64,000 bases of DNA from assembly GCF_012516375.2 (NCBI RefSeq), contig NZ_CP051204.2:6696001-6760000 (forward strand). Reading direction: 5' to 3'. Made by a program: the position numbers and the translations under genes. Below the pieces are notes generated by a model. It saw nothing but the letters and a program-made list of their open reading frames with translations. It had not been told where the DNA came from and did not search any database. Below, one piece after another: positions 6,699 through 56,077 of this stretch (the first letter of the stretch is position 1; each line of letters begins with the position of its first letter). This DNA comes from Chitinophaga oryzae (GTDB lineage: Bacteria > Bacteroidota > Bacteroidia > Chitinophagales > Chitinophagaceae).

Positions 6699-6774
6699 TC
6701 TCCACGGTAAACATCACATCCTTCATTAATACTGTTACGAAATTAATCACAATTCGCCGTATAAAGATAAAATG

Positions 6775-6782
6775 TATTTTTG
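6775..6782 (+). promoter_or_regulatory. -7 element TATTTTTG for the small secreted protein
   Basis: An exact match to the Bacteroidota -7 consensus TAnnTTTG lies 20 bp before the ATG at 6803. No clear -33 element was seen. Confidence 0.55.
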
Positions 6783-6802
6783 CAATATATTTTTATCTTT
6801 CG

Positions 6803-7186: not shown

Positions 7187-7191
7187 TCATC

Positions 7192-10122
7192 CTAACGGCT
7201 GCCGGCTGTCACCGGCGATTTACCCCAGGCATCCTGGTAAAACACAACATTATTCCAACGAACACCGGAAGACCGGATACTACGCAGCCATTCGCTGATA
7301 CCTGCCGCCCTGATGGTTTTGACGCCGGAGAGCACGGCGCCCTGTACATCGTCGAGGAACAAGGCATAGCGCCCGTCCGGCTGCTCGTACCTGAATGAAC
7401 TTTCCGAGATGCTCAGTCCTTCCACATGACGGGCCCACAGTCCGTACGCAGGCTGTATCCTGAGATTAGACACATTATACTGCCCTACCCCCAGCTCCGG
7501 CGGCCGTTGCGCCGTATCGGCCAGGGGACGCCCGCCTTTGTCAGTGATATGCACATCGTTGAACGCCACATGGCGGATATACCCGGTGTGACGGCCATCC
7601 GGCAACGTAAAATCCAGTCCGCCTTCCACAGCAGCCGCGGCTGGCAGGGCATAACCGGCGATGACAGATGTCGCCCGGTGCTGTGAACCATCGAAGGGCT
7701 TCCAGCGGACACCATTACTAAAAGAGCTGCCCCCGTAGACTTCCGAAATATCAATACTGTTGATCACGATGTTTTCCACCTGTCCGATACTCACGTTTTG
7801 CACCAGCAGTTCCGTCCGTTTCCGGCCTTCTTCTGCAAAAGTATATTGCCCCACCGTAGCGCCTATCACCCGTCCCCTGTTGGAAATGGAGATAAAAAAC
7901 GGCGCCGTGGTGCGCATCATGCGGGACCGCTGGTTTACCGGTCCGGTATGTCCGCAGTTGAGGTGAATATCCTTCACATGCCCGCCGTCGTTGGTGGAGA
8001 TGGAGAACCCGGCCTTATTGGCGCCCAGTACATAAATGTTGTCCACACAGATATCCGTAATATCATCCGCCGTTTCCGAACCTATCTGGAATAGGTTGCA
8101 GTTAGTATCGCCAATGACGTTGCGCACCCGGTAATGCCGCGCCGGACGGGTAAATCCCAGTGAACAGTCAGATCCCGGTTTTACGATATCGTCTGAACTG
8201 ACGCGGGAATAAATATTCTGCACCGTGACCTGGTTACATCCCATAAAATCATAGATATCCCGTACACTGGTCTGATTCATTTTGCCGAAGTAAGTGTCAT
8301 GCACGAAGAGCGTGTCCGTGCCTGTAGCCAGCAGCACAAAGTGGCCTGCACGATCTATCTGCAGCATATTACTGTCATCATACGAAGGCTGCCCGTCTTT
8401 ATCCATATAGTAAGGGACGTCTTTCGCGGAATCATACCAGAGGTCATTATCGCGGTGGATACCGCCTATTTCCACGTTGGTGCATAGTTTCAGCGAAAAC
8501 ATTTTATCCGCCCGTTTGTCGGGAGGGTTGTTCATTACCTTGTCACTGGTGACGAGGTTGCCATTGCCGGTGATGAGTCCGTTGCCGATGATTTTGACAT
8601 TATCGAGCCGTTCTCCGAAGAACATGGCATTGTGGAAATAATGATGCCCTACGTCCTGCTTGGTGAGGTAGTTTTCCGGGTCTTCGTAAGGGCCGCGGTC
8701 TGTGGGTGAGAGGCCGGAGCGATAGGCCTGATCGCTGAACCAGGTCGTTTCCGGGGCGTCGGCGCCTTTCAGCGCACGGATAACGGCCTGCTTGCCGATA
8801 TAGAGGTATACGTTGCTTTGCAGGTGTACCGTGCGTACGTTGTAGGTGCCTTCGCTGAATAGCAGGGTGCCGCCGCCGATGTTATGCATAAAGCGGACCG
8901 CTTCGTTGATAGCGGCGGTATGATCTGTGGTGTCATTGCCCTGCACACCGAACTTCCGGATGTCCAGCATTCCGGTGTAATCACTGGCAATGTTGGAACC
9001 GCCGCGATGCACGCCGTCTTTCACCAGCAGCCGGAAATGATACAGCTTGTCGCGACGCAGGCCGGTAACGGCGGCAGCACCGTGTTCCACGTCTATGCTT
9101 GCTTTGGCGGCCGACCAGTGCCTGCCGCTATCGGTGGAATATTCCATCGTTATCCTGCCGGCGGCGACCGGCGTCCAGCGAAAATGTGCCTGCGTATAGT
9201 CGCGTCGTAATTCGTGATAGGGTTTATCTTTTACCATCACCTTTTTAAAATCGGCGATGGTTTTGGTCACCCAGAGGTCCGCAGTTTCCCCTGCCAGGCC
9301 CGAGCTGGCCAGCACCGCCGGCTGCGAAGTGGTGCAGGCAGCACTGATAAAATATCTTCCGGTGGCCGTCAGCGTAACATCGGGTATCGTCAGCACCAGG
9401 TCGGGCCCGTTGGCCGGGCGCAGGTCCAGGTGGCGCAAGGTAAGCGTAGCGCCGCCGTCTGCAGCCTTGTCAATCATTGCTTCGCCTACACGCGTATAGG
9501 AGTAGCGGGTACCCGTGCGGCCGATGGACTGTCTCGGTAAATCCCTGAGCAGCACGGCGCCGCGGCCGGTCACGTTGACCGTCGTATTCTCCGGCGTGAT
9601 CGTGATGCCTGCCGGGAAATGCAGCGTGATGGTAGCATCCGGGCTGCGCTGACCAGCGGTATATTGAAGCGTGATGGTATTCTTTACTTGTGCCGTTATT
9701 GTTGGCCGCAGCAGCTCCAGCCTGCCGGTGAGGGCGCGCTGCTCCGGGAGCAGGTAGTAAGTCGTGCTGCCCCTGGCGTTGGTGAGTGTGAGACGATCGC
9801 CTGCGAGGATGACGCCCGCAGCTTTGGGTTTGCCGTCTGCTGCAGTTACCTGGCTGCTCAGTACGGCCACATTGGTTTGCAGTTCGGCCAACAGATGCGC
9901 TACTGTGGTAGCAGTGCTGACCAGCCCTTCACCTGCTTTTGTATCTGTTGTATAGGCGAAGGTGCTGCCGGTGACTACTTTGATCGTGTCTCCAAGGATG
10001 GATGCGATATGCGGGGACGCCGGGCCGGCGAGCGCACGCGGCAGTGGCAGCGGTACGGCAGCCGGAGCTTTCGCCGCTCCTGTAACAATGTGGACCAAAA
10101 ACAGGATGAATATGTGTTTCAT
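7192..10122 (-). CDS. Exported right-handed beta-helix glycosidase, GH28 (polygalacturonase)-like
   Basis: The 976-residue protein starts with a signal peptide and is in three parts: an N-terminal beta-rich region (about 20-280) of unknown role, a fibronectin type III-like domain (about 310-382), and from about 388 a pectate-lyase/GH28 parallel beta helix starting with FGVQGNDTTDHTAAINEAV. Within the helix SSDDIVKPGSD and FQIGSETADD resemble the GDD...K and ISIGSE motifs of GH28, so hydrolysis of a uronic-acid polysaccharide is likely; the exact substrate is not shown. The extra N-terminal half makes it about twice the length of a simple polygalacturonase. It stands alone, without SusC/SusD neighbours. 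Confidence 0.8.
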   Translation of the reverse strand: MKHIFILFLVHIVTGAAKAPAAVPLPLPRALAGPASPHIASILGDTIKVVTGSTFAYTTDTKAGEGLVSTATTVAHLLAELQTNVAVLSSQVTAADGKPKAAGVILAGDRLTLTNARGSTTYYLLPEQRALTGRLELLRPTITAQVKNTITLQYTAGQRSPDATITLHFPAGITITPENTTVNVTGRGAVLLRDLPRQSIGRTGTRYSYTRVGEAMIDKAADGGATLTLRHLDLRPANGPDLVLTIPDVTLTATGRYFISAACTTSQPAVLASSGLAGETADLWVTKTIADFKKVMVKDKPYHELRRDYTQAHFRWTPVAAGRITMEYSTDSGRHWSAAKASIDVEHGAAAVTGLRRDKLYHFRLLVKDGVHRGGSNIASDYTGMLDIRKFGVQGNDTTDHTAAINEAVRFMHNIGGGTLLFSEGTYNVRTVHLQSNVYLYIGKQAVIRALKGADAPETTWFSDQAYRSGLSPTDRGPYEDPENYLTKQDVGHHYFHNAMFFGERLDNVKIIGNGLITGNGNLVTSDKVMNNPPDKRADKMFSLKLCTNVEIGGIHRDNDLWYDSAKDVPYYMDKDGQPSYDDSNMLQIDRAGHFVLLATGTDTLFVHDTYFGKMNQTSVRDIYDFMGCNQVTVQNIYSRVSSDDIVKPGSDCSLGFTRPARHYRVRNVIGDTNCNLFQIGSETADDITDICVDNIYVLGANKAGFSISTNDGGHVKDIHLNCGHTGPVNQRSRMMRTTAPFFISISNRGRVIGATVGQYTFAEEGRKRTELLVQNVSIGQVENIVINSIDISEVYGGSSFSNGVRWKPFDGSQHRATSVIAGYALPAAAAVEGGLDFTLPDGRHTGYIRHVAFNDVHITDKGGRPLADTAQRPPELGVGQYNVSNLRIQPAYGLWARHVEGLSISESSFRYEQPDGRYALFLDDVQGAVLSGVKTIRAAGISEWLRSIRSSGVRWNNVVFYQDAWGKSPVTAGSR

Positions 10123-10247
10123 AACGGAAGGGAATTGGACTTAAATTACGCAATCGATTGAAATTATTATAGTCCGGGTCGAATTTTATTGTTTCGCGGC
10201 CATTGCCTGCTCATTACAGCCCGGGAAGAATAAACAGAAAACCGGGG

Positions 10248-10255
10248 TAACTTTG
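10248..10255 (+). promoter_or_regulatory. -7 element TAACTTTG for the VOC gene
   Basis: An exact TAnnTTTG match lies 31 bp upstream of the ATG at 10287, a typical leader length for Bacteroidota. Confidence 0.6.
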
Positions 10256-10286
10256 CAAAAATTCAGCACAAACGAAACCATTCGCC

Positions 10287-10667
10287 ATGAAGATATCAAG
10301 ACTGGACCACCTCGTCCTTACCGTCGCCGATATAGCGGCCACCTGCCGTTTTTATGAAGATATATTAGGCATGGAAGTACAGACCTTCGGCGACAACCGC
10401 ACAGCGCTCCGGTTTGGTCAGCAAAAAATCAATCTGCATCAGCAGGGGAAAGAATTCGAGCCTAAAGCTATACGTCCGGCCCCCGGTTCTGCAGACTTAT
10501 GTTTTATTACCCAAACGCCTATACGTGAAGTGAAAGAAGAACTGGTCAGCAAAAACATTCCCCTCCTGGAATCGGAAGTAAAAAGAACGGGCGCCAATGG
10601 TCCTATCCTCTCCATTTACTTCCGGGACCCGGACGGGAACCTTATTGAAGTAAGCAACTATATTTGA
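10287..10667 (+). CDS. VOC-family protein (glyoxalase/dioxygenase fold, GLOD5-like)
   Basis: This 126-residue protein is a single vicinal-oxygen-chelate domain made of two beta-alpha-beta-beta-beta units. His7 in LDHLVLTV and the C-terminal glutamate in DPDGNLIEV are in the places of VOC metal ligands. The sequence most resembles the GLOD5 subgroup of the glyoxalase/bleomycin-resistance family. The substrate is unknown; members include lactoylglutathione lyases, extradiol dioxygenases and drug-binding proteins. It is transcribed alone from the element at 10248 and is convergent with the CAT-like gene. Confidence 0.88.
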
Positions 10668-10698
10668 TCATTTTAAAATTTGCTCATTATCCCAATAA

Positions 10699-11322
10699 TC
10701 AAATATCCAACTGTCTCTGGAACTCGTCCAGGAACAGCCCCACATGATAGCCATCCATCAGCGCATGATGCACATGTACTGATACCGGCATTGTCATTTT
10801 ACCATCGTTATCGGTCATCTTACCGAAAGAGATCTTCGGACAGCTGTCCGGAAAGGTAAAGCTGCGGGCATGGGACAACCCGGTAAAATTGATCCAGGGC
10901 ATGGAAGAACAATGCACCACGTTTTCACCGGATACGGCAGGTATAAGGCCGGTGCTGCCCTGCACCTTTTCTGTTTCCACGCGCGCAGCAGCAGCAAAGG
11001 TTTCAAAGTCCGCGTGATACGGGAAGTAAGCAAAACCGAAAGTGCCGTCAGGCCGGTTGATGGTCGGGGAAGGATCGATATGATCGTATACCCATACCTG
11101 TTTGTCGATGATACGGTAACGAAAAGGTTCTGTAAGATTCATCGCTACCATGGCCTTATGCAGGTAGTACAGGAAAAACGAATACCCGTACGCCTTGGAT
11201 ACGTAGTAAGCGCGGGTACAATCCACATTAACGCAAACCCCGAAAAAAGGCTCCTCGAACTGACTAAAAAAATGATAATGGTCTTTTCTGGCCCAGTTGT
11301 TTATGTCCAGTTGTTGTTTCAT
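10699..11322 (-). CDS. Chloramphenicol acetyltransferase-like (CAT family) protein
   Basis: The 207-residue length and the motif HHALMDG at residues 185-191 match type A chloramphenicol acetyltransferases, in which the second His (here His186) is the catalytic base and the Asp (Asp190) is structural. The YHFFSQFEEPFFG segment near residue 16 also fits the family. Chromosomal homologues occur widely in Bacteroidota and not all act on chloramphenicol, so an unknown acetyl-acceptor is equally possible. Its ATG overlaps the stop codon of the upstream HAD gene by 4 bp (ATGA), so the two are translationally coupled. Confidence 0.85.
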   Translation of the reverse strand: MKQQLDINNWARKDHYHFFSQFEEPFFGVCVNVDCTRAYYVSKAYGYSFFLYYLHKAMVAMNLTEPFRYRIIDKQVWVYDHIDPSPTINRPDGTFGFAYFPYHADFETFAAAARVETEKVQGSTGLIPAVSGENVVHCSSMPWINFTGLSHARSFTFPDSCPKISFGKMTDNDGKMTMPVSVHVHHALMDGYHVGLFLDEFQRQLDI

Positions 11323-12011
11323 GACAATAGCTGTGGCAGTATCGCCGATATGTTTTCAAAGGAATAAAATCTGTCGTCTTTCACCTCTCCTTCTACCACT
11401 TCATGCGCCCATACAGTGTGATAAGGAATATGGATAGCGTGCCCGCCAATGGCCAGCACCGGCAATACATCCGATTTGATGGAGTTGCCGATCATAAGAA
11501 AAGCTTCCGGTGAGCAATCCAGGTGCCGCAACAGTTTACGGTAGTCTTTCTCCTGTTTATCGCTCATAATTTCGATGTGATGAAAATAATGCGCCAGGCC
11601 GGATTTATTAAGCTTCCTCTCCTGGTCCAGCAGATCGCCTTTGGTAGCGACCACCAGGCGGTATTTACCCTTGAGGGCTTCGAGCACTTCTTTTACACCA
11701 TCCAGCAGTTCGATGTCTTTGGCCAGCTGCTCCTTGCCATATTCCAGCACTTTGGCGATCAGCGCGGGACTGGCATTGTTCTCCGTCACACGCAGAATAG
11801 TTTCTATCATGGCCAGCATGAACGCTTTTACGCCGTAACCATACAGCGGCAGGTTCTGCATCTCTGTTTTAAATAACTCCTGCGCCACGGTATGATGGGG
11901 TAAATAGTCTTCCAGAAGACCGCAGAATTTGTTTTCCACTTCCCTGAAATAGGGTTCATTCACCCATAATGTATCATCCGCATCGAAGGCGATGGTTTGT
12001 ATGCCTTTCAT
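11319..12011 (-). CDS. HAD-superfamily hydrolase
   Basis: This 230-residue protein carries HAD motif I as FDADDTLW near residues 8-15, a helical cap, a motif II region (VVATKGD) and a C-terminal motif III/IV region with IGNSIKSDV. It is probably a small-molecule phosphatase. The frame is open back to 12089, but ATG 12011 puts the catalytic motif at the usual distance from the N-terminus. It is the first gene of a two-gene operon with the CAT-like enzyme and is divergent from the Crp/Fnr regulator 69 bp away, which may control it. Confidence 0.85.
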   Translation of the reverse strand: MKGIQTIAFDADDTLWVNEPYFREVENKFCGLLEDYLPHHTVAQELFKTEMQNLPLYGYGVKAFMLAMIETILRVTENNASPALIAKVLEYGKEQLAKDIELLDGVKEVLEALKGKYRLVVATKGDLLDQERKLNKSGLAHYFHHIEIMSDKQEKDYRKLLRHLDCSPEAFLMIGNSIKSDVLPVLAIGGHAIHIPYHTVWAHEVVEGEVKDDRFYSFENISAILPQLLS

Positions 12012-12080
12012 AAATTCTGAAATTTTCTGTAAAATTAATAGCTTCAACTGCGAAAAAACGGGACATTTGTCCCAGCTACC

Positions 12081-12728
12081 ATGATACATACCAATCGTGC
12101 TATTTTAACCTTCATTGAAAACCAGCTGACACCAGCCGAAAAGAAGGACCGGGTATTTCTGCAAACCTGGCCTGCAGGCGGTCACCTGCTTAAACAGGGG
12201 CAGGGGAACAAATATGTCTTTGTCCAGCAGACAGGGCTTTCCAAAGTGCATATCACAGAAGACAACGGAAAGGATTTTATTGTTCAGTTTTTGGGGGAAG
12301 GAGAACTGCTGGGAGAAATAGAAGTCATTCAGAAGACACCTAACCTGACCACGGTGACCGCCCTTACGGAGGTGACCGCATGGTGTATCACGACAGACTA
12401 TTTTGCTTACCTCATCACACATAACCCGGAGCTGAACCGGCTGCTGCTGTTGTCGCTGGCGCACCGGCTGAACCAGACTTCCGCCCGTGCCTCCTACCAG
12501 CAGGTTTATCCTGCTGAGTATGCCATGCTGAAATTATTGTCCGTACTCGCCACCCAGCAGACCAGTTTTGCCAAGAAAGACCTGGCAGATTACCTGGGCG
12601 TGTCTGTAAGGAGCTTTAACCGTTCCCTCAAGCAGCTGCGGGAGAGAAGTATTGTCCATCCGGATAGTTTTGATCTGTATATCGAGCGGGATGTGTTTGA
12701 GCGGTTGATGCGGGAATATGGGGAGTAA
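12081..12728 (+). CDS. Crp/Fnr-family transcription regulator
   Basis: The 215-residue protein has an N-terminal cyclic-nucleotide-binding-like beta barrel (about 20-115, with FLGEGELLGEI) and a C-terminal winged helix (about 150-210) with KKDLADYLGVSVRSFNRSLKQL as helix-turn-helix. No Fnr-type cysteine cluster is present, so it is unlikely to bind an Fe-S cluster. It is divergent from the HAD/CAT-like operon and is the likely local regulator; the intervening 69 bp is short enough for shared control. Confidence 0.88.
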   Translation: MIHTNRAILTFIENQLTPAEKKDRVFLQTWPAGGHLLKQGQGNKYVFVQQTGLSKVHITEDNGKDFIVQFLGEGELLGEIEVIQKTPNLTTVTALTEVTAWCITTDYFAYLITHNPELNRLLLLSLAHRLNQTSARASYQQVYPAEYAMLKLLSVLATQQTSFAKKDLADYLGVSVRSFNRSLKQLRERSIVHPDSFDLYIERDVFERLMREYGE

Positions 12729-47228: not shown

Positions 47229-47257
47229 AAAAGGAGTGGCCGCTGGCTACTCCTTTT
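47229..47257. terminator. Bidirectional terminator at the end of the type III PKS operon
   Basis: AAAAGGAGTGGCC pairs with GGCTACTCCTTTT (one G-T wobble) around a GCT loop. T-runs lie on both sides, so it serves both the small plus-strand gene and the minus-strand operon, whose last stop codon is at 47262. Confidence 0.8.
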
Positions 47258-47261
47258 GTAT

Positions 47262-47756
47262 TTATATCTTCAGGCTGACCATCTCCCGGTAATCGCCATG
47301 GTGACTGACCGACGCCGGCCGGACATCTCCGCCGGTATCCCGGACAAAGGGCACGCCCGCTTCATCTTTCAGCAACTCCTCTCCCGGCCCCTGCCGGTAT
47401 ACGACCTGCGGCCACCAATGAGCTGAAGCTACGGCTACCGTATGCAGGCAATCACCGGCAACGACTGTACGAAAGGGAAAATACCGGTCTTTATAATGCA
47501 CCGTGCCCGCCTCTCCTCCGCAGAGCTGCACCCGGTATCGCAGCGGCGCATATATCCGCTGCCGTGTGTCCCGGTGGATGATCTTATACGCCGCCTCCTT
47601 GGCGCTCCACAGCTGCCATATCATCCGGTCCGGATCAGCAGCCTGCCCGATCAGCAGCTGTTCTCCCGGAGAGAATATTTTATCCAGGTAGCCTTTCCGG
47701 CGCCAGTTACTTTCCACTGCCGCCAGCCGGAGGTCTACCACGTCATTGCCGATCAT
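47262..47756 (-). CDS. 4'-phosphopantetheinyl transferase of the type III PKS cluster
   Basis: This 164-residue protein carries IGNDVVDL at the N-terminus (Mg2+-binding Asp5 region) and WSAKEAAYK at residues 50-58, the two signatures of the Sfp/AcpS superfamily. It should load phosphopantetheine onto the ACP encoded just before it; the two genes overlap by 4 bp, which points to a dedicated pair. The C-terminal part includes PASVSHHGDY. It is the last gene of the operon. Confidence 0.88.
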   Translation of the reverse strand: MIGNDVVDLRLAAVESNWRRKGYLDKIFSPGEQLLIGQAADPDRMIWQLWSAKEAAYKIIHRDTRQRIYAPLRYRVQLCGGEAGTVHYKDRYFPFRTVVAGDCLHTVAVASAHWWPQVVYRQGPGEELLKDEAGVPFVRDTGGDVRPASVSHHGDYREMVSLKI

Positions 47757-48007
47757 GGCGCCGCCAGCTTGTTTTCCACCACTTCCATCGCCGCACGTAC
47801 GTTGATCATCTTTTCCATGGACTCGTTATCGATGACGATGTTAAATTTCTCTTCCACATCCAGCACCACATCCACCAGGTTGGCAGAGTTGATTTTCAGG
47901 TCACGGAGGAAGTCCGTGTCTTCATTGAGTGTTGCCAGCGCCTCGGGATTTTTGGTATAAGGCGCCACCACTTCCTTAATAGTGGCCATTAAGGCTGTTT
48001 TATCCAT
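47753..48007 (-). CDS. Acyl carrier protein of the type III PKS cluster
   Basis: From ATG 48007 this 84-residue acidic protein has the four-helix ACP pattern. Ser41 in KINSANLVDVVLDVEEKF is at the phosphopantetheine site; the usual DSL is replaced by NSA, which marks it as different from housekeeping AcpP. The ATG at 48040 would overlap the KAS gene and is not favoured. It lies 4 bp after the KAS gene and overlaps the transferase gene by 4 bp. Confidence 0.9.
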   Translation of the reverse strand: MDKTALMATIKEVVAPYTKNPEALATLNEDTDFLRDLKINSANLVDVVLDVEEKFNIVIDNESMEKMINVRAAMEVVENKLAAP

Positions 48008-48011
48008 GATA

Positions 48012-49286
48012 TCAGGGTTTATATTTTTTAAGAATAACACAGGCGTTCACATCACCAAAACCGAAACTGGCTTTGGCAATCACCTGAAGGTCTTTATATA
48101 CCAGTTGCTGCGGTATCTTTTCCCGCGGCACGATGGCCGCGATCTCCGGATGCAGGTCTTCGCTGTTGATATTGGGAAACAGAAAACCCTGTTGCAGCTG
48201 CAATACCGCTGCCACCAGCTCTATACTGCCGGATGCGCTGAGGCAATGTCCGACCAGGCATTTGAGCGCATTGACATAGGGGAACTTCGTTCCGCTCCTG
48301 TTGAGCGCAAGGCTCCAGTTCACCACTTCCGTGGCATCTTTGCTGGTGGCCGTCAGATGGCCGTTGATAGCATCTATTTCATCGGGATGTATGCCTGCTT
48401 CGCGAACGGCTTCCCGGATACAACGCTGCACCGCTTCGCTGTTGGGAGCCGTCATGCTGCCTTCATTGCGTTGCCCGCCGGAATTCACATGCCCGCCGGC
48501 AATCTCCGCATAAATCGTCGCGTTTCTTTCCAGCGCGCTCTCCAGCGATTCCACCACCAGCGCGCCGGCTCCCGCTCCGGGTACAAACCCGCTGGCGGTG
48601 GCGCTCATGGGCCTGGAACCGGCGGCGGGCCTGTCGTTATTTTTGAAGGTACATACTTTCATGGCATCGAAGCCGCCCCATACGTAAGGGCCGCCGTCGG
48701 TGGTGCTGCCGGCCAGTATCCGCCGCGCCTTGCCGGCACGTATCCGGTCGTAGGCCATCAGCAGACTCTCTGCGCCGGTAGTACAGGCCGATGAATTGGT
48801 GGTCACCTGGTTGCCCAGTGCCAGCTTGCCGCCGAGCCAGGCGCTGATGCCGCTGGCCATGGTCTGCGCAACAACGGTGCTGCCTAAACGCCGTACCTGC
48901 AGTTCATCCACCCGGTGAATGGCTTCCCGCATCTTATCTACCCCGGAAGAACCGGTGCCGAATATCACGCCGCTGTCCCAGTCGGGCTGCTGCGCTTCTT
49001 TCCCTCCCGGCAAACGGGCGTCCTGCCAGGCTTCCATGCCTGCCATTACGCCATATAACACCGCTCCGCTGTTGAAACCTTTCAGTTCCAGCGGATCAAA
49101 ATACTGCAGCTTCAACGCTTCTGTCACCTCCGGCGTTCCGGCTATGCGGCAGGAAAAATCCAGCGCCTCCAGCTGCGGATCAAAACGGATACCCGATATT
49201 CCCTGCTTCACCGCTTCGGTAAAAGCAGGAATGCCCGTTCCGTTGGGGGCTACCACGCCCATCCCTGTTATCACTACTCTCTCCAT
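48012..49286 (-). CDS. Beta-ketoacyl-ACP synthase (FabF-like) of the type III PKS cluster
   Basis: The 424-residue thiolase-fold enzyme has the complete Cys-His-His set: Cys168 in NSSACTTG, His310 in NGHLTAT and His347 in LVGHCLSASG, with Lys342. It should condense malonyl-ACP with an acyl chain. The local words differ from housekeeping FabF (NAHGTST becomes NGHLTAT, and KSxxGH becomes KCLVGH), which suggests a special chain length or partner. It lies between the dehydratase and ACP genes, without a malonyltransferase or ketoreductase gene nearby. Confidence 0.92.
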   Translation of the reverse strand: MERVVITGMGVVAPNGTGIPAFTEAVKQGISGIRFDPQLEALDFSCRIAGTPEVTEALKLQYFDPLELKGFNSGAVLYGVMAGMEAWQDARLPGGKEAQQPDWDSGVIFGTGSSGVDKMREAIHRVDELQVRRLGSTVVAQTMASGISAWLGGKLALGNQVTTNSSACTTGAESLLMAYDRIRAGKARRILAGSTTDGGPYVWGGFDAMKVCTFKNNDRPAAGSRPMSATASGFVPGAGAGALVVESLESALERNATIYAEIAGGHVNSGGQRNEGSMTAPNSEAVQRCIREAVREAGIHPDEIDAINGHLTATSKDATEVVNWSLALNRSGTKFPYVNALKCLVGHCLSASGSIELVAAVLQLQQGFLFPNINSEDLHPEIAAIVPREKIPQQLVYKDLQVIAKASFGFGDVNACVILKKYKP

Positions 49287-49294
49287 CTGCTGTC

Positions 49295-49322
49295 AATTAC
49301 GAATTACGAATTACAAATTACG
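49295..49322. repeat. Four tandem 7-bp repeats across a stop codon
   Basis: AATTACG, AATTACG, AATTACA and AATTACG follow each other without gaps. The array fills the gap between the KAS and dehydratase genes and includes the dehydratase stop codon (49311-49313). Change in copy number would alter spacing and possibly the last residues of the dehydratase. Confidence 0.75.
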
Positions 49323-49754
49323 ATTGACGGGAGGAACGATCATGCCGGCGATCTCCCCGCTGCTGACGGTCTCCCCCTGTACATTGACCATCGTTACCCG
49401 GCATTTTAGTTTACCAAAACGGAAATATATTTTTTCGCCGGTCACCGTGACTTTCTCTCCAGGCAATACCGGCCGCATAAACTCCACATGGATGGAGGTA
49501 AGGCCGAAAGACACGCCCTCCGGGCCTCCGGTGAGATAGATGCCGAGGCATACCAGTCCGATCTGCGCCATTACTTCCGTCAGCAGCACACCGGGCGTCA
49601 CCGGGTATCCTTTAAAATGTCCTTTGTAACAATCCATGTCCGGGCGGAAAGTAAAACTTCCTGTCACCTGCTGTTCGTCAATTGCTTCGAGCGTATCCAC
49701 AAACAGGAAAGGTGCGCTGTAGGGTAATTTTTCCAGTATAGCTGCTGTCGTCAT
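49311..49754 (-). CDS. 3-hydroxyacyl-ACP dehydratase, FabZ-like hotdog protein
   Basis: The 147-residue protein has one hotdog domain with the catalytic His46 in YKGHFKGYPVTPG and Glu60 in LLTEVMAQIG, as in FabZ (GHFPxxPVxPG...EAxAQ). It should remove water from 3-hydroxyacyl-ACP in the cluster's own chain-building cycle. It starts 8 bp after the enoyl reductase gene and ends inside the tandem 7-mer repeat. Confidence 0.9.
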   Translation of the reverse strand: MTTAAILEKLPYSAPFLFVDTLEAIDEQQVTGSFTFRPDMDCYKGHFKGYPVTPGVLLTEVMAQIGLVCLGIYLTGGPEGVSFGLTSIHVEFMRPVLPGEKVTVTGEKIYFRFGKLKCRVTMVNVQGETVSSGEIAGMIVPPVNRNL

Positions 49755-49762
49755 AAATCCGT

Positions 49763-50554
49763 TTACTGTATATGTGCGCCGCCGTCTACCGGGATCACGG
49801 CCCCGTTCACCCAGGCGGCTTCATCTTTGCATAAAAGGTATACCATATTGGCCACATCTTCCGCGGTGGTCAGCCGGCCGAATGGACTGCGGGCCACGCT
49901 ATGCGCCAGCAGCTGCTCATGGCCGGGGATCATGCGCAGGGAGCGGGTGTCTGTTACCCCGGCCTGTATACAGTTGGACCGTATGCCATAGCGGGCAAAC
50001 TCCAGCGCGATGCTGCGGCTGATAGCTTCCAGCGCAGCTTTGGCTGCAGATACCGCCGCATAGTGTTTCCAGGCGCGGTGGCTCCCTTCGCTGGTAAACG
50101 ATAATACACGGGCATCTGCGGCAAAAAGCCCCTGTTCCCACGTCTCCCTTGTCCAGTCGTACAGGCTCACCGCCATATGGTCCAGCGTGATCATCAGATC
50201 GTCCGTCTGCAGTGCGGGTGCATCCGTCATCGCTTTCAGCGTGCCTTTGGCCACGCTGTGCAACAGGCAACGGACACGCCCCTGCGGTCCCATTTTTTTC
50301 TGCAGCTCCTGTAATACGAGCGTACGCCGCTCCGCCTGTGCCGCGTTGATATTAAACGTCACCACCTGTACGCCGGTTGCCCGCAGCGCTTCAAATGCGG
50401 CGTTCACCGTTTCCATTTCTATGCCGGCATTGCGGTGCACGATACATACATGCATACCGTGCGCCGCCAGCTTAAAGGCTGACGCCAGCCCTAACCCGCT
50501 GCTGCCGCCCAGCACGAGCGCCCAGTATTCTTTCGATGCAAACTCTTTTACCAT
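49763..50554 (-). CDS. SDR enoyl-ACP reductase, FabL-like
   Basis: This 263-residue SDR has a nucleotide-binding loop GGSSGLGLA at 17-25 and the catalytic pair Tyr165...Lys172 in YAAVSAAKAALEA. The Y-x6-K spacing marks enoyl-ACP reductases (FabI/FabL), not ketoreductases (Y-x3-K), and the C-terminal part (RSNCIQAGVTDT...GAVIPVDGG) resembles Bacillus FabL. It should saturate the enoyl-ACP in the cluster's cycle. It overlaps the type III PKS gene by 7 bp. A FabG-like ketoreductase is not in the cluster and must come from elsewhere. Confidence 0.83.
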   Translation of the reverse strand: MVKEFASKEYWALVLGGSSGLGLASAFKLAAHGMHVCIVHRNAGIEMETVNAAFEALRATGVQVVTFNINAAQAERRTLVLQELQKKMGPQGRVRCLLHSVAKGTLKAMTDAPALQTDDLMITLDHMAVSLYDWTRETWEQGLFAADARVLSFTSEGSHRAWKHYAAVSAAKAALEAISRSIALEFARYGIRSNCIQAGVTDTRSLRMIPGHEQLLAHSVARSPFGRLTTAEDVANMVYLLCKDEAAWVNGAVIPVDGGAHIQ

Positions 50555-51600
50555 TGTAACAATATTCTTTGTGCGGAAAATCCGGGACCGAAACTCAGCA
50601 TCAGCCCTTTATCGCCCGGTGGCACCCCCCTGTCGAGAATACGCTCCAGCACATACAACACTGTGGCGCTTGACATGTTGCCATATAACCGCAATACTTC
50701 TTTGGTATCGTCAATATTTTTCCCGGAGCCGGCGAACAGCTCTTCCACCGTCTGGATAATCTTCCTTCCGCCGGGATGGAAGATCAGCTGGTTCACTTCT
50801 TCCATGGAGGTGCCGTGGCGCGCCAGGAAAGGATGGATGATATCGCCGAAATGCGCCGCTATCTGTTCAGGCACGGCAATGTCCAGCACCATCTGCAGGC
50901 CGGAGTTGGAGAGATGGAAACCCATCAGGTGCGTGGCATCGTAAAAGTGATACATCTCCGTGCCTATGATAGCCGGTCCGGCATCTTCTTCATGGGACGA
51001 CAAGATCACGCAGGCGGCGCCATCGCCGAAGATGGCAGCCGAGACAATATTGGCCATCGAAAAATCCTGATGCTGAAAGGTAGCCGTGGGCGATTCCACC
51101 GCCACCACTGCCGCACGTTTTCCCGGATTGGCCTTCAGGAAATTATAGGCGTAGATCATCCCCGAAACGCCGGCGGCGCAACCCATCTCCGTAACGGGCA
51201 ACCGTACAATGTCCTGCCGCATTTGCAGGGTATTGATCAGGTAAGCGTCCATAGAGGGGATCATAAAACCGGTACAGCTGACAGTGATGATAAAATCGAT
51301 ATCGCTCCCCTTCAGGCCCGCCTTTTCCAGCGCGCCCTGCAGACAACGCCGTCCGAGCTCCGTTCCTTCGCGGATATACAAATTGTTTTTTTCTTCAAAG
51401 GAGGTGCAACGGAACACTTCTTCCGCATTCATGATAGAATAGCGCTGGTCCACCGCTGCATTCTCAAAGATTTTTTTCACTTTTCTGATAAACCGTTCGT
51501 CTTGTCCGGCCAGCCACAGGTCCAGGTACGGCATGATTTCGCTGGTAGGCCTGGTATATGGCGGTAATGCCTTGGCTACTGATTGAATTTTTACGCTCAT
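50548..51600 (-). CDS. Type III polyketide synthase
   Basis: The 350-residue chalcone-synthase-fold enzyme has the catalytic triad Cys141 (TEMGCAAG), His275 (IFHPGGRK) and Asn308 (LYGNMSSA). It extends an acyl starter with malonyl units and cyclises the product. With dedicated fatty-acid genes downstream, the starter is probably a long acyl chain, giving an alkylresorcinol or alkylpyrone. Its ATG overlaps the methyltransferase stop by 4 bp, and its end overlaps the enoyl reductase start by 7 bp, so these genes are translationally coupled. Confidence 0.93.
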   Translation of the reverse strand: MSVKIQSVAKALPPYTRPTSEIMPYLDLWLAGQDERFIRKVKKIFENAAVDQRYSIMNAEEVFRCTSFEEKNNLYIREGTELGRRCLQGALEKAGLKGSDIDFIITVSCTGFMIPSMDAYLINTLQMRQDIVRLPVTEMGCAAGVSGMIYAYNFLKANPGKRAAVVAVESPTATFQHQDFSMANIVSAAIFGDGAACVILSSHEEDAGPAIIGTEMYHFYDATHLMGFHLSNSGLQMVLDIAVPEQIAAHFGDIIHPFLARHGTSMEEVNQLIFHPGGRKIIQTVEELFAGSGKNIDDTKEVLRLYGNMSSATVLYVLERILDRGVPPGDKGLMLSFGPGFSAQRILLQW

Positions 51601-52307
51601 AAATTAGATATAATCCATTGGTAACGGAAAGCCCATTTCCAGCGGAGGCTTTGACGCCTGATATTTAGTTTTTGTGACAGCTGCATCAGCTCCGACCGTT
51701 TGAATCCGCGCATGATGGAGGTCAGGCCGTCATAGCGCGTCATTTCTTCCAGGCGCAGTGCATAACACAGCAGTTGAAATAACCGGTAGGCCAGACCGCT
51801 GCGATGCAGGTCGTTGACCACAATTCCGGCAGATGCGCACCGGCGGAAATGCTGCATCAGCGCCAGTATCTCCGGATCGGTAAAATGGTGCAGCGTCAGT
51901 GTCAGCAGGAGAATGTCTCCCTCCATTTCAGGGACCGGGCCCTGCGTAACATCGAGGCAATGATAAGTGATTTCCGGGAAGTCAGCGGACAGTTCCCCTG
52001 CCAGGCGGACGGTGAACGGATTGGCATCGATGCCCGTCAGCCTCAGCTTCCATTGTTTTTTCCTGCCGTGTTCCGCGAGTGTCCGTAACATGTCGCCGTT
52101 GCCGCAGCCGATGTCCACGATACGTACTTCCCTGCCGGGGGGCAGGTGGCGCATCAGCATGTCTACGCCTTTTACCGTGATACGGTTGCCTCCCAGCCGC
52201 CGGTTGATCTGCGCTATCTTTTCCAGCGCCCGTTGCAGCCGTTCACCTTCCATGGAAAAATCATCCATGATTTCAGGCGCCAGTATACGCTGTGAGGTAT
52301 CAGGCAT
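51597..52307 (-). CDS. SAM-dependent methyltransferase of the type III PKS cluster
   Basis: The 236-residue class I methyltransferase has the SAM motif VDIGCGNGD at 64-72, and LTLTLHHF as motif IV-like segment. Its place between a flavoenzyme and a type III PKS gene parallels SrsB in the Streptomyces griseus srsABC phenolic-lipid operon, where the methyltransferase O-methylates an alkylresorcinol. It is coupled to the PKS gene by a 4-bp overlap. Substrate inferred only. Confidence 0.85.
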   Translation of the reverse strand: MPDTSQRILAPEIMDDFSMEGERLQRALEKIAQINRRLGGNRITVKGVDMLMRHLPPGREVRIVDIGCGNGDMLRTLAEHGRKKQWKLRLTGIDANPFTVRLAGELSADFPEITYHCLDVTQGPVPEMEGDILLLTLTLHHFTDPEILALMQHFRRCASAGIVVNDLHRSGLAYRLFQLLCYALRLEEMTRYDGLTSIMRGFKRSELMQLSQKLNIRRQSLRWKWAFRYQWIISNL

Positions 52308-52321
52308 ATGCTCATTTTAAT

Positions 52322-52395
52322 ATTTTGTTATTTGGTTATTTAAATATTTAAAATGACAACCTGGCTTAAATAATTAAATAACGAAATAATCAAAT
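52322..52395. repeat. Imperfect AT-rich palindrome inside the type III PKS operon
   Basis: Arms 52335-52351 and 52366-52382 are reverse complements with one mismatch, extended outward with one mismatch each (52328-52334 with 52383-52389). It fills the gap between the flavoenzyme and methyltransferase genes, where it could attenuate transcription. The core TTTGGTTATT is shared with the palindrome at 30628. Confidence 0.6.
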
Positions 52396-52397
52396 GA

Positions 52398-53524
52398 CTA
52401 GATAATTAAATTCCCGTGTGTTTGCCGGATAATAAACGGCAATATCGCCGGGACTGACGCCATTTGCTGCACCAGCCAGGTCGACAGCCGGTCTTTCAGG
52501 AACAGGTTGTTGAGCAGCCGCCCCATTTTCATCCGGTAGCTGAATGCTTTTTCCCACTCCCGGGTGTAATCCGTTTCCATCCTGTGGCGGTCGTACGCCG
52601 CATCGTTGCAATAGCGCAGGACAGCGGTGGCCGCTAGCCGGGCGCTGTGGATGGCCATGGCCATCCCGTTGCCGCACAGCGGATGAATAAGGCCGGCGGT
52701 ATCTCCCGTCAGCAGCATATGTTGTTCCACTTTTGTTTTCCGTTCAAAAGAAATCTGGCTGATGGCCAGCGGCTGATCAAACAAGGGCCGGCTGTTGCCA
52801 AAAATTGTTTTCAGGTGATGATTCCGGTACAGCACTTCTTCGCGGTGCCGGTCAATATCGCCGTAGCGGCGGAAGCTGTCCATCTGTACGAGGTAGCAGA
52901 TATTGAGCGCGCCTGTCTCCGTTTTGGATACACCGCAGTAGCCGCCGGGAAAATTGTGCAGGGCCACCAGCCCGTCGGGGAAATCGCCTTCATAGTGTCC
53001 TTTCACGGCCAGCCAGGGGGCGGGCTTGCGGAGGAAGGCGCGCGACAGCCGTTGGTCCAGTGTGGAGCGTTTACCGAAGGCGCCCAGCACGACGGTGCCC
53101 GTCAGCGGGGATGTGTTTTCACCCGCACTATATAACTGTTGTCACCGTGATACTCCACATCGGTGACGGTGTCGGTGATCAGCCGTACGCCTGCCGCCAG
53201 TGCTTTGTTGAGCAGGAAATGGTCGAGCGTGTAGCGGCTGACGCCGAAGCCGCCCAGCGGCAGTGTGGCGGAGATGGTTTTCCCGTTGGCCGCCGAGAGC
53301 AGCAGCCGGGAGATGTCCGCCGGCGCCAATACTGCCGGGTCGGCGCCCAGCCATTGCAGGTAGGGCAATACTTCATTGGAAATATATTCTCCGCAGACCT
53401 TATGGCGGGGGTAGGTATTTTTTTCAACCAGCGACACGGGCAGTCCTGCCCTGGCAAGGTGGATGGCGCTGGTGAGGCCGGCAAGGCCGCCTCCGATAAT
53501 GATAATATGATGCTCTAAGCCCAT
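52398..53524 (-). pseudogene. FAD-dependent oxidoreductase (geranylgeranyl-reductase/monooxygenase family), frameshifted
   Basis: Two adjoining frames together make one typical flavoenzyme of about 375 residues. The N-terminal part (53102-53524) has the FAD-binding loop GGGLAGLTSAIHLARAG and YPRHKVCGEYIS; the C-terminal part (52398-53090 and upstream in frame to about 53116) has VLGAFGKRSTLD and the FAD-contact motif GDTAGLIHPLCGNGMAM. The first frame ends with TGA at 53102-53104, and the second is in the -1 frame relative to it, so one base is missing (or two added) near 53104-53125, in the sequence around AAAACACATCCCC. Both halves are otherwise well preserved, so this is a recent mutation, a sequencing error or a recoded gene. 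In the cluster it would hydroxylate or oxidise the phenolic lipid, as SrsC does in Streptomyces. Confidence 0.85.
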
Positions 53525-53594
53525 GTACATGAGCAATATACGACATATTTAACAGTACAGTTGCCGTTTTGCGGCAGTGGGCCGGGGCGGGAGA

Positions 53595-53960
53595 TCAGGG
53601 GGAATGGGGCGCGCCGGTGGTGAGGATGTCCGTTGGCGGAGACGGGGGCGGCGCATTTTTTTTGCTGATGATGATCACTTTGCCGGATATTTCCCAGGAG
53701 TAATGGAGCGGCAGGAGTATATCATCGAGCAGGCGGCGCAGCTCAGCATCTGACTGCTGCAGGGACACCCTGGCGTCGTAGGGGGCGGTGTGGCTGCCGA
53801 AGAAGCGAAGGCCGGTCTGCTGGCTGATCAGTTTAAAGACTTCCCGCAGCGGGACGTTGCGGACGTTCACGTTGACCTTTATTTTCTCCGCCTGGTTGGC
53901 GATGCTGTGAGGTGAGCGGTAAAAGAGGGGGAGCCAGAGGATAAGGAAACGTATCTTCAT
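53595..53960 (-). CDS. Stand-alone STN-domain exported protein
   Basis: The 121-residue protein has a signal-like hydrophobic start (MKIRFLILWLPLFY) and one secretin/TonB short N-terminal (STN) domain: VNVNVRNVPLREVFKLISQQTGLRF...LDDILLPLHYSWEISGKVIIISKK. It ends with a proline-rich tail instead of the CarboxypepD_reg and TonB-receptor domains that follow STN in SusC-like proteins. STN domains normally contact a FecR anti-sigma factor in the periplasm. It is the first gene upstream of the flavoenzyme in the type III PKS operon and divergent from a sigma/FecR pair. It may be a receptor remnant or a specialised signalling piece. Confidence 0.8.
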   Translation of the reverse strand: MKIRFLILWLPLFYRSPHSIANQAEKIKVNVNVRNVPLREVFKLISQQTGLRFFGSHTAPYDARVSLQQSDAELRRLLDDILLPLHYSWEISGKVIIISKKNAPPPSPPTDILTTGAPHSP

Positions 53961-54370
53961 AAAATAATGACGAGGGAAGTTTGAAATCGTGAATAGCTAA
54001 AGGGGTGATACCGGTCAGGGGTTTTTCAATGAGGCGCTGGATCGTAAAAAATCATTACATATATCCAAACGCATCGGGCAGCAGAAAGTACTATAGGCGG
54101 CGTATGAATTCCGCGGAGCTTCCCAAACCCACCGGTAACTAATTCGTGCTTTACAAATGCTTAACAAATCCCGGATGGTTGCGGTTGTTTTCCCGATGGG
54201 AGAATATCTTAATTTGGTAACAGTATATTAACGCACAGTTAATACTATTCATGTAACTGTTCTGAAGACCCCTTTTATTTTAATTCCCGGATAACCATTG
54301 GCAGATACAGGAGTATTATTTATTGACCGGTAAGTTATGCTAAAACATAATTCAATTGGGGGAAAGTACG
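53961..54370. other. Divergent control region between the STN/type III PKS operon and the sigma/FecR genes
   Basis: No gene is visible in these 410 bp. No exact TAnnTTTG element was found close to either start codon, which would fit control by an alternative sigma factor, though this is not proof. The plus-strand ORF could begin at a TTG at 54356, but the ATG at 54371 is a better start. Confidence 0.5.
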
Positions 54371-54916
54371 ATGGAACCTTACACTGATGCACAATTGGTA
54401 GCTGATCTGAAGATCGGCAGCGAGTGGGCATTCACCCAACTTTATAACCGTTACTACAAACGGCTGCACATCGAGGCCAACTACGTGTTGAAAGACGCGG
54501 AGGAGGCGGCTGACGTGGTGCATGATGTGCTGATCATCATCTGGAACCGCAGGGACAAGCTGGCGGACAACCTCCATCTGAAAAGTTATCTGACCACCTG
54601 CGTGCGGAACAAATGTATGGACCGTATCCGGCGTAGCGTCGTAAAAGAGCGCAATGTACATCAATATATGAGCCTTAAAGAGCTCACCACCTGTATTAAT
54701 CCTATGGAACGGAAAGAACTGTCGCTTCAGCTGGCTACTGCTATCAATGCCCTGCCGGTAGCGCAGCGGACCGTCTTTGAATTGTCATACATGGAAGATA
54801 AAACGCAACGGGAAATCGTGGCGGAAAAAAACCTCTCTCTGCAAACGGTGAAAAATCAAATGAGCACTACCCTCAGAATTCTGAGAAAAAAACTAAAATC
54901 TTCCCGCGACCTATAG
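54371..54916 (+). CDS. ECF-type RNA polymerase sigma factor
   Basis: The 181-residue protein has sigma region 2 (about 20-85: FTQLYNRYYKRLHIEA, DVVHDVLIIIWNRRDKL, LKSYLTTCVRNKCMDRIR) and region 4 (about 115-175: LPVAQRTVFELSYMEDKTQREIVAEKNLSLQTVKNQM). It is the Bacteroidota-specific ECF type paired with FecR anti-sigma factors, here encoded 45 bp downstream. Such pairs usually control a SusC/SusD operon next door; none follows here. Free sigma would be released when an outer-membrane receptor signals through FecR. Confidence 0.93.
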   Translation: MEPYTDAQLVADLKIGSEWAFTQLYNRYYKRLHIEANYVLKDAEEAADVVHDVLIIIWNRRDKLADNLHLKSYLTTCVRNKCMDRIRRSVVKERNVHQYMSLKELTTCINPMERKELSLQLATAINALPVAQRTVFELSYMEDKTQREIVAEKNLSLQTVKNQMSTTLRILRKKLKSSRDL

Positions 54917-54961
54917 TACTTTTTGTCGTGAACACCGTTAATAGGATAACATCCGATTCAA

Positions 54962-56077
54962 ATGGATTATGAAAAAATCAGAGAACTCTCTTTGGATGAG
55001 CTGCTGGATATGATCAGCGAGGAAGACAAAGCCTTTCTGCACAGCGCCATCAGGGAAGATCTCCAGGCACGCAATATCTGGGAAAGCATCCAGCGGGACC
55101 GCCCCCGGCTACTGGCTGATGCTAGCGAAAGCCATGATCAGCATCCCGTGGAGGAGGTACTAACGGACCTCAGCAAACGGAGCGGGCGTCGCTACGTGCT
55201 GAAAGCCAGCAGTATTGCCGCCGCCTGTTTGCTCGCCATTACCGCCGGCTGGTACCTGTTCAGACCTGCTGAACGGCCACCGCTGGCAACGATATCGGAC
55301 AGCGTCCCCAATACCATCCGCCTCGTGACGGCTGAAGGCAAAACCATTGACCTCAGCAACGATTCCGCAGGCATCCGGGTAGGCGGCGCCGTATTAAATA
55401 ACACACAGCGCACGCTCAGCTTCGACGCCAGCCACCAGAGCGGCAGCGGGATCAACACCCTCACCGTTCCGGCCGGCAAGGACTATCACCTGCTGCTGGC
55501 GGATGGCACCCGTATACAACTAAACGCTGCCACCACCATCAGCTTCCCGTTCTCCTTCCCGGGCAAAACCCGCGAAGTGACAATTAACGGGGAAGCCTAT
55601 CTCCAGGTTGCCGCCAAAGCAGGCCAGCCCTTTATTGTGCACCTGCCAGGCAATACGGTGAATGTACTGGGCACAGCCTTTAACATCAATACCTATGATT
55701 CCGGCCTCGTGAAAGTAGCGCTCGTGGAAGGCTCCGTAAAAGTAGCCACCGGCAAAAAGGACATCGTCCTCAAACCAGGCTACGAACTCACCAGCGCCCG
55801 CGACGGCATCACCAAAGAAGCCTTCGATGCGGACAAGGTGCTGGGCTGGCGCACAGGCGTATACACCTTTGAAAACGCTTCCCTGCAGGAACTGGCCCCC
55901 GTCATCATGCGGTGGTTCGGCGTCACCATCGCCCTGGATAATCCAAGAGTCCGCAGCAGACGCTTCTTCGGCATCATCGACAGAAACCAGCCCCTGCAGG
56001 CCTTCCTGCATAACCTGGAACGCGCAGACGGCATCAAATCCAGCTACGATCAGCAAGGCGTTCTCCATTTCGAATAG
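54962..56077 (+). CDS. FecR-family anti-sigma factor
   Basis: The 371-residue protein has an N-terminal cytoplasmic sigma-binding region, one membrane segment at about 81-100, a periplasmic FecR domain (about 170-265, with LLLADGTRIQLNAATTISFPFSF and GEAYLQVA) and a C-terminal DUF4974 domain (about 295-371: FENASLQELAPVIMRWFGVTI). DUF4974 in this family contacts STN domains. It forms a pair with the sigma gene upstream. The partner STN could be the orphan protein encoded divergently at 53595-53960. Confidence 0.93.
   Translation: MDYEKIRELSLDELLDMISEEDKAFLHSAIREDLQARNIWESIQRDRPRLLADASESHDQHPVEEVLTDLSKRSGRRYVLKASSIAAACLLAITAGWYLFRPAERPPLATISDSVPNTIRLVTAEGKTIDLSNDSAGIRVGGAVLNNTQRTLSFDASHQSGSGINTLTVPAGKDYHLLLADGTRIQLNAATTISFPFSFPGKTREVTINGEAYLQVAAKAGQPFIVHLPGNTVNVLGTAFNINTYDSGLVKVALVEGSVKVATGKKDIVLKPGYELTSARDGITKEAFDADKVLGWRTGVYTFENASLQELAPVIMRWFGVTIALDNPRVRSRRFFGIIDRNQPLQAFLHNLERADGIKSSYDQQGVLHFE

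Follow-up and report, generated by a model that had tools for sequence, protein, structure and literature searches.

In Streptomyces griseus the srsABC genes encode a type III polyketide synthase (PKS), a methyltransferase (MT) and a flavoprotein hydroxylase. To our knowledge no beta-ketoacyl-acyl carrier protein synthase (KS), dehydratase (DH), enoyl reductase (ER), acyl carrier protein (ACP) or phosphopantetheinyl transferase (PPT) is linked to srs, and the germicidin synthase gene gcs is likewise not known to have a private ACP, KS or PPT beside it. Here we analyze an operon of Chitinophaga oryzae in which a type III PKS, an MT and a flavin adenine dinucleotide (FAD) enzyme are adjacent as in srsABC and are accompanied by a KS, a DH, an ER, an ACP and a PPT. 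The likeness to srsABC is one of gene composition, and for the FAD enzyme of the operon (in the following the flavoenzyme) a role as hydroxylase is putative. The operon lies in a window of 64,000 nucleotides (positions 6696001-6760000 of the single-contig genome of 8.36 Mb), which is the whole stretch under study.

Type III PKSs which accept acyl-ACP are known. According to passages of PMC6274091, the ArsA ACP domain hands the acyl chain to ArsB and ArsC, and hexanoyl-ACP serves SCO7671 and Gcs. The PKS of the operon would resemble Gcs/SCO7671 in taking acyl-ACP; the products of Gcs, however, are short pyrones. The arsABCD cluster of Azotobacter vinelandii uses type I fatty-acid synthase (FAS) proteins, whereas among the eight genes of the operon we found single-domain FAS enzymes only; these type II enzymes are separate proteins and the ACP is free-standing. 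In cylindrocyclophane biosynthesis, as described in passages of PMC8086630, CylI receives a chain that has been made by type I PKSs in a line starting on a free-standing ACP. Thus CylI is alike in the ACP start and unlike in the type I PKS elongation. Dialkylresorcinol (DAR) rings arise by condensation of two fatty-acid intermediates (passages of PMC3992019), and for Azoarcus a DAR cluster that includes a KS and an ACP (darJ, darC) is already published (passages of PMC3949708). DAR clusters differ from the operon in their ring former, which is a KS III-like DarB with DarA instead of a type III PKS, and have no pair of MT and flavoenzyme. One type of DAR locus, however, has an ER-DH-KS-ACP-PPT block and an ACP motif in common with the operon.

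We suggest, with a probability of roughly 60%, that these five genes are a transferable acyl-supply block whose ACP-bound chain primes the type III PKS, so that the operon would make one modified lipid. The KS, the DH and, where present, the ER would build a fatty chain on the private ACP together with the housekeeping proteins FabG, FabD and FabH, and the PPT of the operon would activate this ACP. The chain would then go from the ACP to the active-site cysteine of the PKS. The PKS could add malonyl-coenzyme A (CoA) units and close an aromatic ring, giving an alkylresorcinol or alkylresorcylic acid and, less likely, an alkylpyrone. The MT might methylate the ring and the flavoenzyme hydroxylate it, which would lead to a methoxy-phenol or a quinone. 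The proposal is built on the observed gene content and order, the intact active sites, the linkage and a KS clade apart from the housekeeping enzymes with a sister block at DAR loci; we infer from these the direction of transfer, the absence of a CoA intermediate, the ring type and the order of tailoring. Judged by sequence, the product could belong to the resorcinols, the quinones or the pyrones. If the proposal holds, a widespread operon would combine an srsABC-like composition and an ars- or Gcs-like transfer with a private type II chain builder.

The eight genes lie on the same strand (Table 1) in the order flavoenzyme, MT, PKS, ER, DH, KS, ACP and PPT. Several overlap (PPT/ACP by 4, ACP/KS by 29, ER/PKS by 7 and PKS/MT by 4 bases), the gaps KS/DH and DH/ER measure 24 and 8 bases, and only the MT and the flavoenzyme are further apart (90 bases). 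An earlier note on this DNA had described eight genes on one strand, mostly overlapping or within 25 bp, and the open reading frames and domains bear this out. Of the span given there, 47262..53524, the left end stands; the right end has to be moved because the frame of the flavoenzyme starts at 53,536. The note also likened the three adjacent genes for PKS, MT and flavoenzyme to srsABC, which agrees with our analysis, and rightly stated that neither a ketoreductase nor a malonyltransferase is among the eight genes. Its frameshift is real in this sequence as well: the flavoenzyme, the sole broken gene of the eight, is split into two pieces (53102-53536 and 52398-53090), whereas C. fulva and C. 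varians (loci L087 and L088) have one open frame, 378 codons long in L087. The window PKS is 91-96% identical to the PKSs of Chitinophaga flava, C. fulva and C. varians. The broken frame may reflect a mutation or an error of sequencing; unless it is the latter, a non-hydroxylated product is predicted to accumulate in this strain.

Table 1. Genes of the operon and a hairpin at its 3' end, in window positions
Feature	Position	Strand	Basis
FAD-dependent oxidoreductase (geranylgeranyl-reductase/aromatic hydroxylase superfamily), frame split in two	52398..53536	-	profile matches; relatives intact
S-adenosylmethionine methyltransferase, PRK06202-like	51597..52307	-	profile matches; 104/104 PKS loci
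Type III polyketide synthase, Cys141-His275-Asn308	50548..51600	-	profile matches, alignment, model fold
FabL-like enoyl-ACP reductase, short-chain dehydrogenase/reductase (SDR), Tyr-x6-Lys	49763..50554	-	profile and PDB match; 49/104 PKS loci
FabZ-like 3-hydroxyacyl-ACP dehydratase, His46 and Glu60	49311..49754	-	profile matches; 104/104 PKS loci
Beta-ketoacyl-ACP synthase, clade apart from housekeeping FabF/FabB	48012..49286	-	profile matches, trees
Private acyl carrier protein, attachment site NSANLVD	47753..48040	-	profile matches, alignment
Sfp/AcpS-superfamily phosphopantetheinyl transferase	47262..47756	-	profile match, alignment
13-bp hairpin with A and T runs on its flanks, possible terminator at the operon 3' end	47229..47257	no strand	consensus scan only

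The earlier note had asked for a comparison of gene neighbourhoods across Chitinophagaceae and had held that its claim would fall if the neighbours were not conserved with the PKS in related species; they proved to be conserved. In a sample of 395 evenly drawn Bacteroidota genomes a type III PKS is matched at E 1e-40 in 88; 33 of these, the window's included, are orthologs (66-100% identity; next best 38%). The KS, searched for in 395 genomes of the phylum, matched 33 at 59-100% identity and five more at 47-51%. When the lists are compared, the PKS orthologs (at least 66%) and the KS orthologs (at least 59%) fall into the identical set of 33 genomes. Within the genus Chitinophaga the PKS is present in 44 of 79 genomes and missing from 35. 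We then scored gene presence by tblastn in 104 PKS loci holding 102 distinct PKS sequences; apart from the window itself, 20 come from the 32 remaining orthologs of the phylum sample, 80 are the best among at least 576 matches in a scan of the genome collection, and three stem from a family search. MT, DH and KS are near the PKS in all 104 loci, and the flavoenzyme and the ACP each in 102; the two loci without ACP, L118 and L140, lie on short contigs. The gene order is nearly invariant. In Dyadobacter loci L123 and L136 the MT and PKS genes are divergent from the block, a geometry as in DAR loci. The ER is optional with 49 occurrences among the 104 loci, and its presence varies by genus (10/10 in named Chitinophaga, 7/7 in Winogradskyella, 0/17 in Pedobacter and 1/20 in Flavobacterium). 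A ninth gene spanning the lineages was not found, no flanking family being present in more than 22 of 101 loci; therefore the eight genes are the limits of the operon across lineages. A DUF294/CBS protein, for instance, is near the PKS in 21 of 101 loci, in Flavobacteriaceae only. Among the 55 distant PKS matches (below 40% identity) we fetched 20 loci: 17 are without any partner genes, L072 has a weak SDR match (24%) 6 kb off, and two have a trio of flavoenzyme, MT and PKS.

Pfam and NCBIfam domains identify each of the proteins. The PPT matches ACPS (42.6 bits), the ACP matches PP-binding (21.1 bits, cut-off 20.8), the KS has both ketoacyl-synthase domains (N and C) and the DH a FabA-like hot-dog domain (43 bits). 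The ER is matched by SDR/enoyl reductase profiles, the PKS by those of chalcone synthase N and C and the MT by class I methyltransferase. For the residues generally taken as catalytic in these enzyme families we aligned the open reading frames called by script, hence the rows are fewer than the loci. C141, H275 and N308 of the PKS are conserved in 101/101 rows, C168, H310, K342 and H347 of the KS in 98/98, H46 and E60 of the DH in 96/96, the motif of the PPT in 86/86 and S52 of the ACP in 85/85. Thus, as claimed before, the catalytic residues are present except in the frameshifted flavoenzyme. S155 and K172 of the ER are found in 47/47 rows and Y165 in 45/47; the two deviating rows are probably an unrelated SDR on the opposite strand, which we observed near the operon at L050 and L139. 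Tyr-x6-Lys is the spacing of enoyl reductases and not that of FabG, and the best PDB match of the ER is FabL (3oic), so we set aside a reading of this SDR as ketoreductase.

The PKS has the chalcone-synthase fold with the Cys-His-Asn triad and is thus a type III PKS. By sequence it is nearest to Pks11; by fold (model with a predicted local distance difference test score, pLDDT, of 88.5) it is again nearest to Pks11, followed by CylI with 26% identity. We dropped the idea of reading the ring type from residue 228 of the PKS, as F228 is invariant (101/101) and aligns with a W in Pks11, which is named an alpha-pyrone synthase. The N-terminal piece of the flavoenzyme matches FAD oxidoreductase families in Pfam; the C-terminal piece is unmatched in Pfam and is recognized by geranylgeranyl-reductase-type models in NCBIfam. 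The closest fold to a model of the intact L087 protein (pLDDT 87) is that of 3-hydroxybenzoate 6-hydroxylase, with FAD halogenases, PhzS, a geranylgeranyl-reductase-like protein and UbiI following. In sequence profiles the protein leans towards the geranylgeranyl-reductase superfamily and the monooxygenase QhpG. Next to a ring-forming PKS, hydroxylation of the ring would be the more probable role.

The same block is found beside DAR genes. At L189 and L190 it is arranged in the order PPT-ACP-KS-DH-ER and is divergent from genes for a 166-residue protein, a DarA-like protein and DarB. The DarB proteins score 615 and 635 bits (cut-off 550), which identifies both loci as DAR clusters, and L189 in addition has DarG (191 bits, cut-off 170) and DarH (443 bits, cut-off 300); next to the block of the operon itself there is no DarB above 550 bits. 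The DarA-like protein is matched by no family model, and we presume its identity from its position. With the DAR-linked KS we searched 294 Chitinophagaceae genomes and obtained 23 matched genomes, including those of the window and of L189. Twenty of the other 21 were fetched (G603 was left out): seven loci have the DAR arrangement, two end too soon for a decision (L199 and L202), five have the PKS operon (L204-L206, L212 and L213, the last two being repeats of L156 and L094) and another six have other partners. All together the block is joined to DAR genes in nine loci without a type III PKS, and ACP and PPT are present in 9/9. Since DAR rings are made from fatty-acid intermediates, the block plausibly supplies ACP-bound chains in these loci and, by analogy, the starter in the PKS operon. 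The idea of a hand-over gains independent support because the same block adjoins DAR genes. That type III PKSs accept acyl-ACP was known; the block beside DAR genes in nine loci is new. As a separate observation, all nine have a protein of roughly 166 residues ahead of DarA, and its L189 copy (11751-12251) has no Pfam or NCBIfam match.

The relationship between the two sets was analyzed with a KS tree of 55 rows, rooted on three KSs of the Chitinophaga oryzae genome and on E. coli FabF and FabB; the divergent KSs L012, L014 and L015 of that genome were left out. Operon KSs were represented in our trees by 23 sequences chosen for spread from 98 called. The 26 PKS-linked rows form one clade (100/99) and the DAR rows another (100/100), and four changes of partner class, the lowest number possible, suffice, whether or not L199 and L202 are labelled. 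L190, from family f3, groups with the Chitinophagaceae DAR loci and not with the PKS loci of Pedobacter, and both clades contain rows from Chitinophagaceae; thus the KS split follows the partner and not taxonomy. The ER tree parts the sets as well (DAR 100/100, PKS 85/88). Because the KS tree lacks resolution at its base and has a long FabB branch, we claim separate clades and not an order of events.

A common feature of both sets is the sequence around the attachment serine of the ACP. It reads NSANLVD in 100 and NSSHLVD in two PKS-linked ACPs (102/102) and NSANLVD in eight and NSANMVD in one of the DAR-linked ACPs (9/9). The motif is in none of eight ACPs with other partners (a ninth such locus has no ACP match) and in none of the five other ACPs found in the window genome. 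Among the loci looked at it is therefore common to the PKS and DAR classes only. The nearest KS rows to the DAR clade are L203 and L207 (99/95), whose ACPs are without the motif; therefore the motif tracks the ring-forming partner more closely than KS ancestry, although two changes either way would explain its distribution. A reading of the motif as a tag for the private PPT was rejected, since it is retained in eight PKS loci where no PPT was detected.

Related sets are also coupled to other partners. At L191-L193, which belong to another family, KS, DH and ACP genes stand beside a GNAT protein and a family 2 glycosyltransferase (Pfam run on L191 and L192), with an ER in L191; perhaps these sets belong to a glycolipid pathway. 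Somewhat short of an even chance, and thus as a tentative generalization, we propose a portable block of KS, DH, often ER, the NSANLVD ACP and often PPT, which in Bacteroidota has been coupled to unrelated ring formers, namely type III PKS and DarA/DarB, with related KS-DH-ACP sets beside GNAT and glycosyltransferase, FcoT/TauD and AMP-ligase genes; the ACP motif may be the recognition code for CoA-free uptake of the chain. Among these other loci L203 (G538, 5396-11169) has KS, DH and ACP of the same KS superclade beside an FcoT-thioesterase, a TauD dioxygenase, a Rieske protein and an LCM methyltransferase, a set which we presume to resemble isonitrile-lipid clusters. L207 has KS and DH with an AMP-ligase, L209 has KS and DH with an apolipoprotein N-acyltransferase-like protein, and L208-L211 have two KSs per locus.

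The genome has its own copies of most of these functions. There are 19 KS-family matches, some of which are domains of large PKSs, and one KS adjoins the sole ACP above the AcpP cut-off, at 0.682 Mb. Another dehydratase is a 481-codon frame at 7.89 Mb, judging by its length presumably an LpxC-FabZ fusion. FabI-like SDRs are found elsewhere in the genome (none above the cut-off of the FabI model), as are five further ACPs and three further PPTs. Compared with six additional KSs of the genome, the operon KS shows 24-32% identity. In a tree of 23 operon KSs, these six and E. coli FabF and FabB (the very long rows L010 and L016 were removed), the operon KSs form one group (100/100) and do not group with FabF or FabB. 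As separate observations, three KSs, two ACPs, one DH and one PPT lie together at 7.141-7.163 Mb, probably an aryl polyene/flexirubin cluster, and a second DarB-family match of 384 bits, below the cut-off of 550, lies in a 641-codon frame at 6766248-6767369, about 6 kb past the right end of the window and about 17 kb from the operon. The only DarB above the cut-off of model NF053539 (550 bits) is away from the operon at 1.4225 Mb; in the stretch 1.4225-1.4284 Mb it is accompanied by an ACP, a KS and a permease-like reading frame, and this ACP and KS fall outside the clade of the operon.

With these copies in view it can be judged whether KS, ER and ACP are housekeeping fatty-acid genes that stand beside the PKS by chance, a reading that their homology to FabF, FabL, FabZ and AcpP might suggest. 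The earlier note had named this as one outcome that would overturn its claim and had asked for a phylogeny of KS, ACP and ER. The operon copies are not the only ones, the operon KS is outside the clade of the other KSs at a support of 100, and 35 of the 79 Chitinophaga genomes do without the PKS, so that this reading is refuted as far as sequence allows. Quite improbable in our view is a DpgA-like route, in which the PKS would use malonyl-CoA only and its aryl product would prime the KS, DH and ER to give an aryl-ended chain. DpgA (NF042429) is indeed the best NCBIfam model of the PKS, and aryl-primed type II chains have been proposed for flexirubin polyenes (passages of PMC3992019). The score of 181 bits, however, is far under the cut-off of 425 and the block-less PKS of L085 scores similarly (171 bits). 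No DpgB- or DpgD-like gene is among the eight, and the PKS is nearest to Pks11 and then by fold to CylI, which is an acceptor of alkyl chains. More weight has to be given to priming by ordinary acyl-CoA, with the block making a second chain to be attached to the ring afterwards, either through an ester or as another alkyl group. The sister pathway yields DAR products with two chains (passages of PMC3992019), and ArsB and ArsC accept acyl-CoA starters as well (passages of PMC6274091). We nevertheless consider it unlikely, because no acyltransferase, thioesterase or ligase recurs beside the operon across lineages and because PKS and KS of the operon clade share the same 33 genomes.

Some observations weigh against our proposal that the block primes the PKS, and part of them favour acyl-CoA. 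Trios of flavoenzyme, MT and PKS occur without the block in two genomes (L085 and L086, same order, PKS about 30% identical), thus that kind of PKS can be fed otherwise. The commonest neighbour of the operon, in 22 of 101 loci, all of Flavobacteriaceae and mostly 3-6 kb from the PKS, is an acetyl-CoA synthetase-like AMP-binding ligase. It looks like ordinary acetate metabolism, and an acyl-CoA route may operate in the Flavobacteriaceae which have it. At DAR loci, C. pinensis darA and darB gave a DAR upon heterologous expression (passages of PMC3992019), therefore a dedicated block is not strictly needed there. Within the block neither the ER, absent from 55 of 104 loci, nor the PPT, undetected in at least eight besides the two on short contigs, is essential. 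The claim of an own type II fatty-acid synthase set hence goes too far, as ketoreductase, acyltransferase and FabH must also be borrowed. Two Dyadobacter loci have no flavoenzyme within about 10 kb of the PKS, and since the sequence of the flavoenzyme also matches geranylgeranyl-reductase and halogenase families, to call it a hydroxylase is a guess among related flavoenzymes. The alignment of F228 with the W of a named alpha-pyrone synthase means that the ring type cannot be read off. For the product of the operon, our proposal draws on sequence, structure models and analogy.

Genes of this operon have been counted before, since T3PKS clusters are reported to be common in Flavobacteriaceae and Bacteroidetes. 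In two surveys of Flavobacteriaceae they account for some 9-11% of the biosynthetic clusters predicted, and the passages name no product for them (PMC7440613, PMC10734526); passages of several among these two papers, PMC3098273, PMC7477175, PMC12565237, PMC9100364, PMC5916927, PMC9606717, PMC9248904 and PMC7317107 list antiSMASH T3PKS clusters in Bacteroidota without a product. Searches of the open full-text literature, which misses most subscription papers, turned up no account of the operon as such, nor of its product or the block common with DAR genes. The earlier note held that a type II version of the hand-over with a private ACP and activating transferase appears unusual; acyl-ACP-accepting type III PKSs as such are already known (passages of PMC6274091). 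Should this operon account for much of the T3PKS class of Flavobacteriaceae, a single lipid class made by a single mechanism would explain that class. With natural variants that have or lack ER, PPT and flavoenzyme, and with the DAR sister block, the proposed uptake of the chain from the ACP by the PKS becomes testable by swaps of ACP and KS.

Directly past the last stop codon of the operon lies the hairpin of Table 1. Terminator-like sites number 10 in the region and 8.1 in shuffled sequences, so the hairpin is noteworthy by its length alone and is a possible terminator. Immediately upstream of the operon a short protein with an STN domain is encoded (53595-53960, minus strand), and on the other strand (54356-56077, plus) a sigma factor-like and a FecR-like reading frame follow, both named from reading their translations. 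ABC ATPases are near the operon in 18 of 101 PKS loci of several genera (e.g. L054:13823-14764), a loose grouping which may lump different ATPases. In the complete genome of Lacinutrix neustonica (L155) the flavoenzyme, MT and KS genes of the operon are split into several frames by decay or sequencing errors, and the operon KS of G084 (L064) has one in-frame TAA. At L140 the operon is on a contig of 5.3 kb assigned to a Candidatus Nitrotoga metagenome-assembled genome; this contig is probably misbinned and of Bacteroidota origin.

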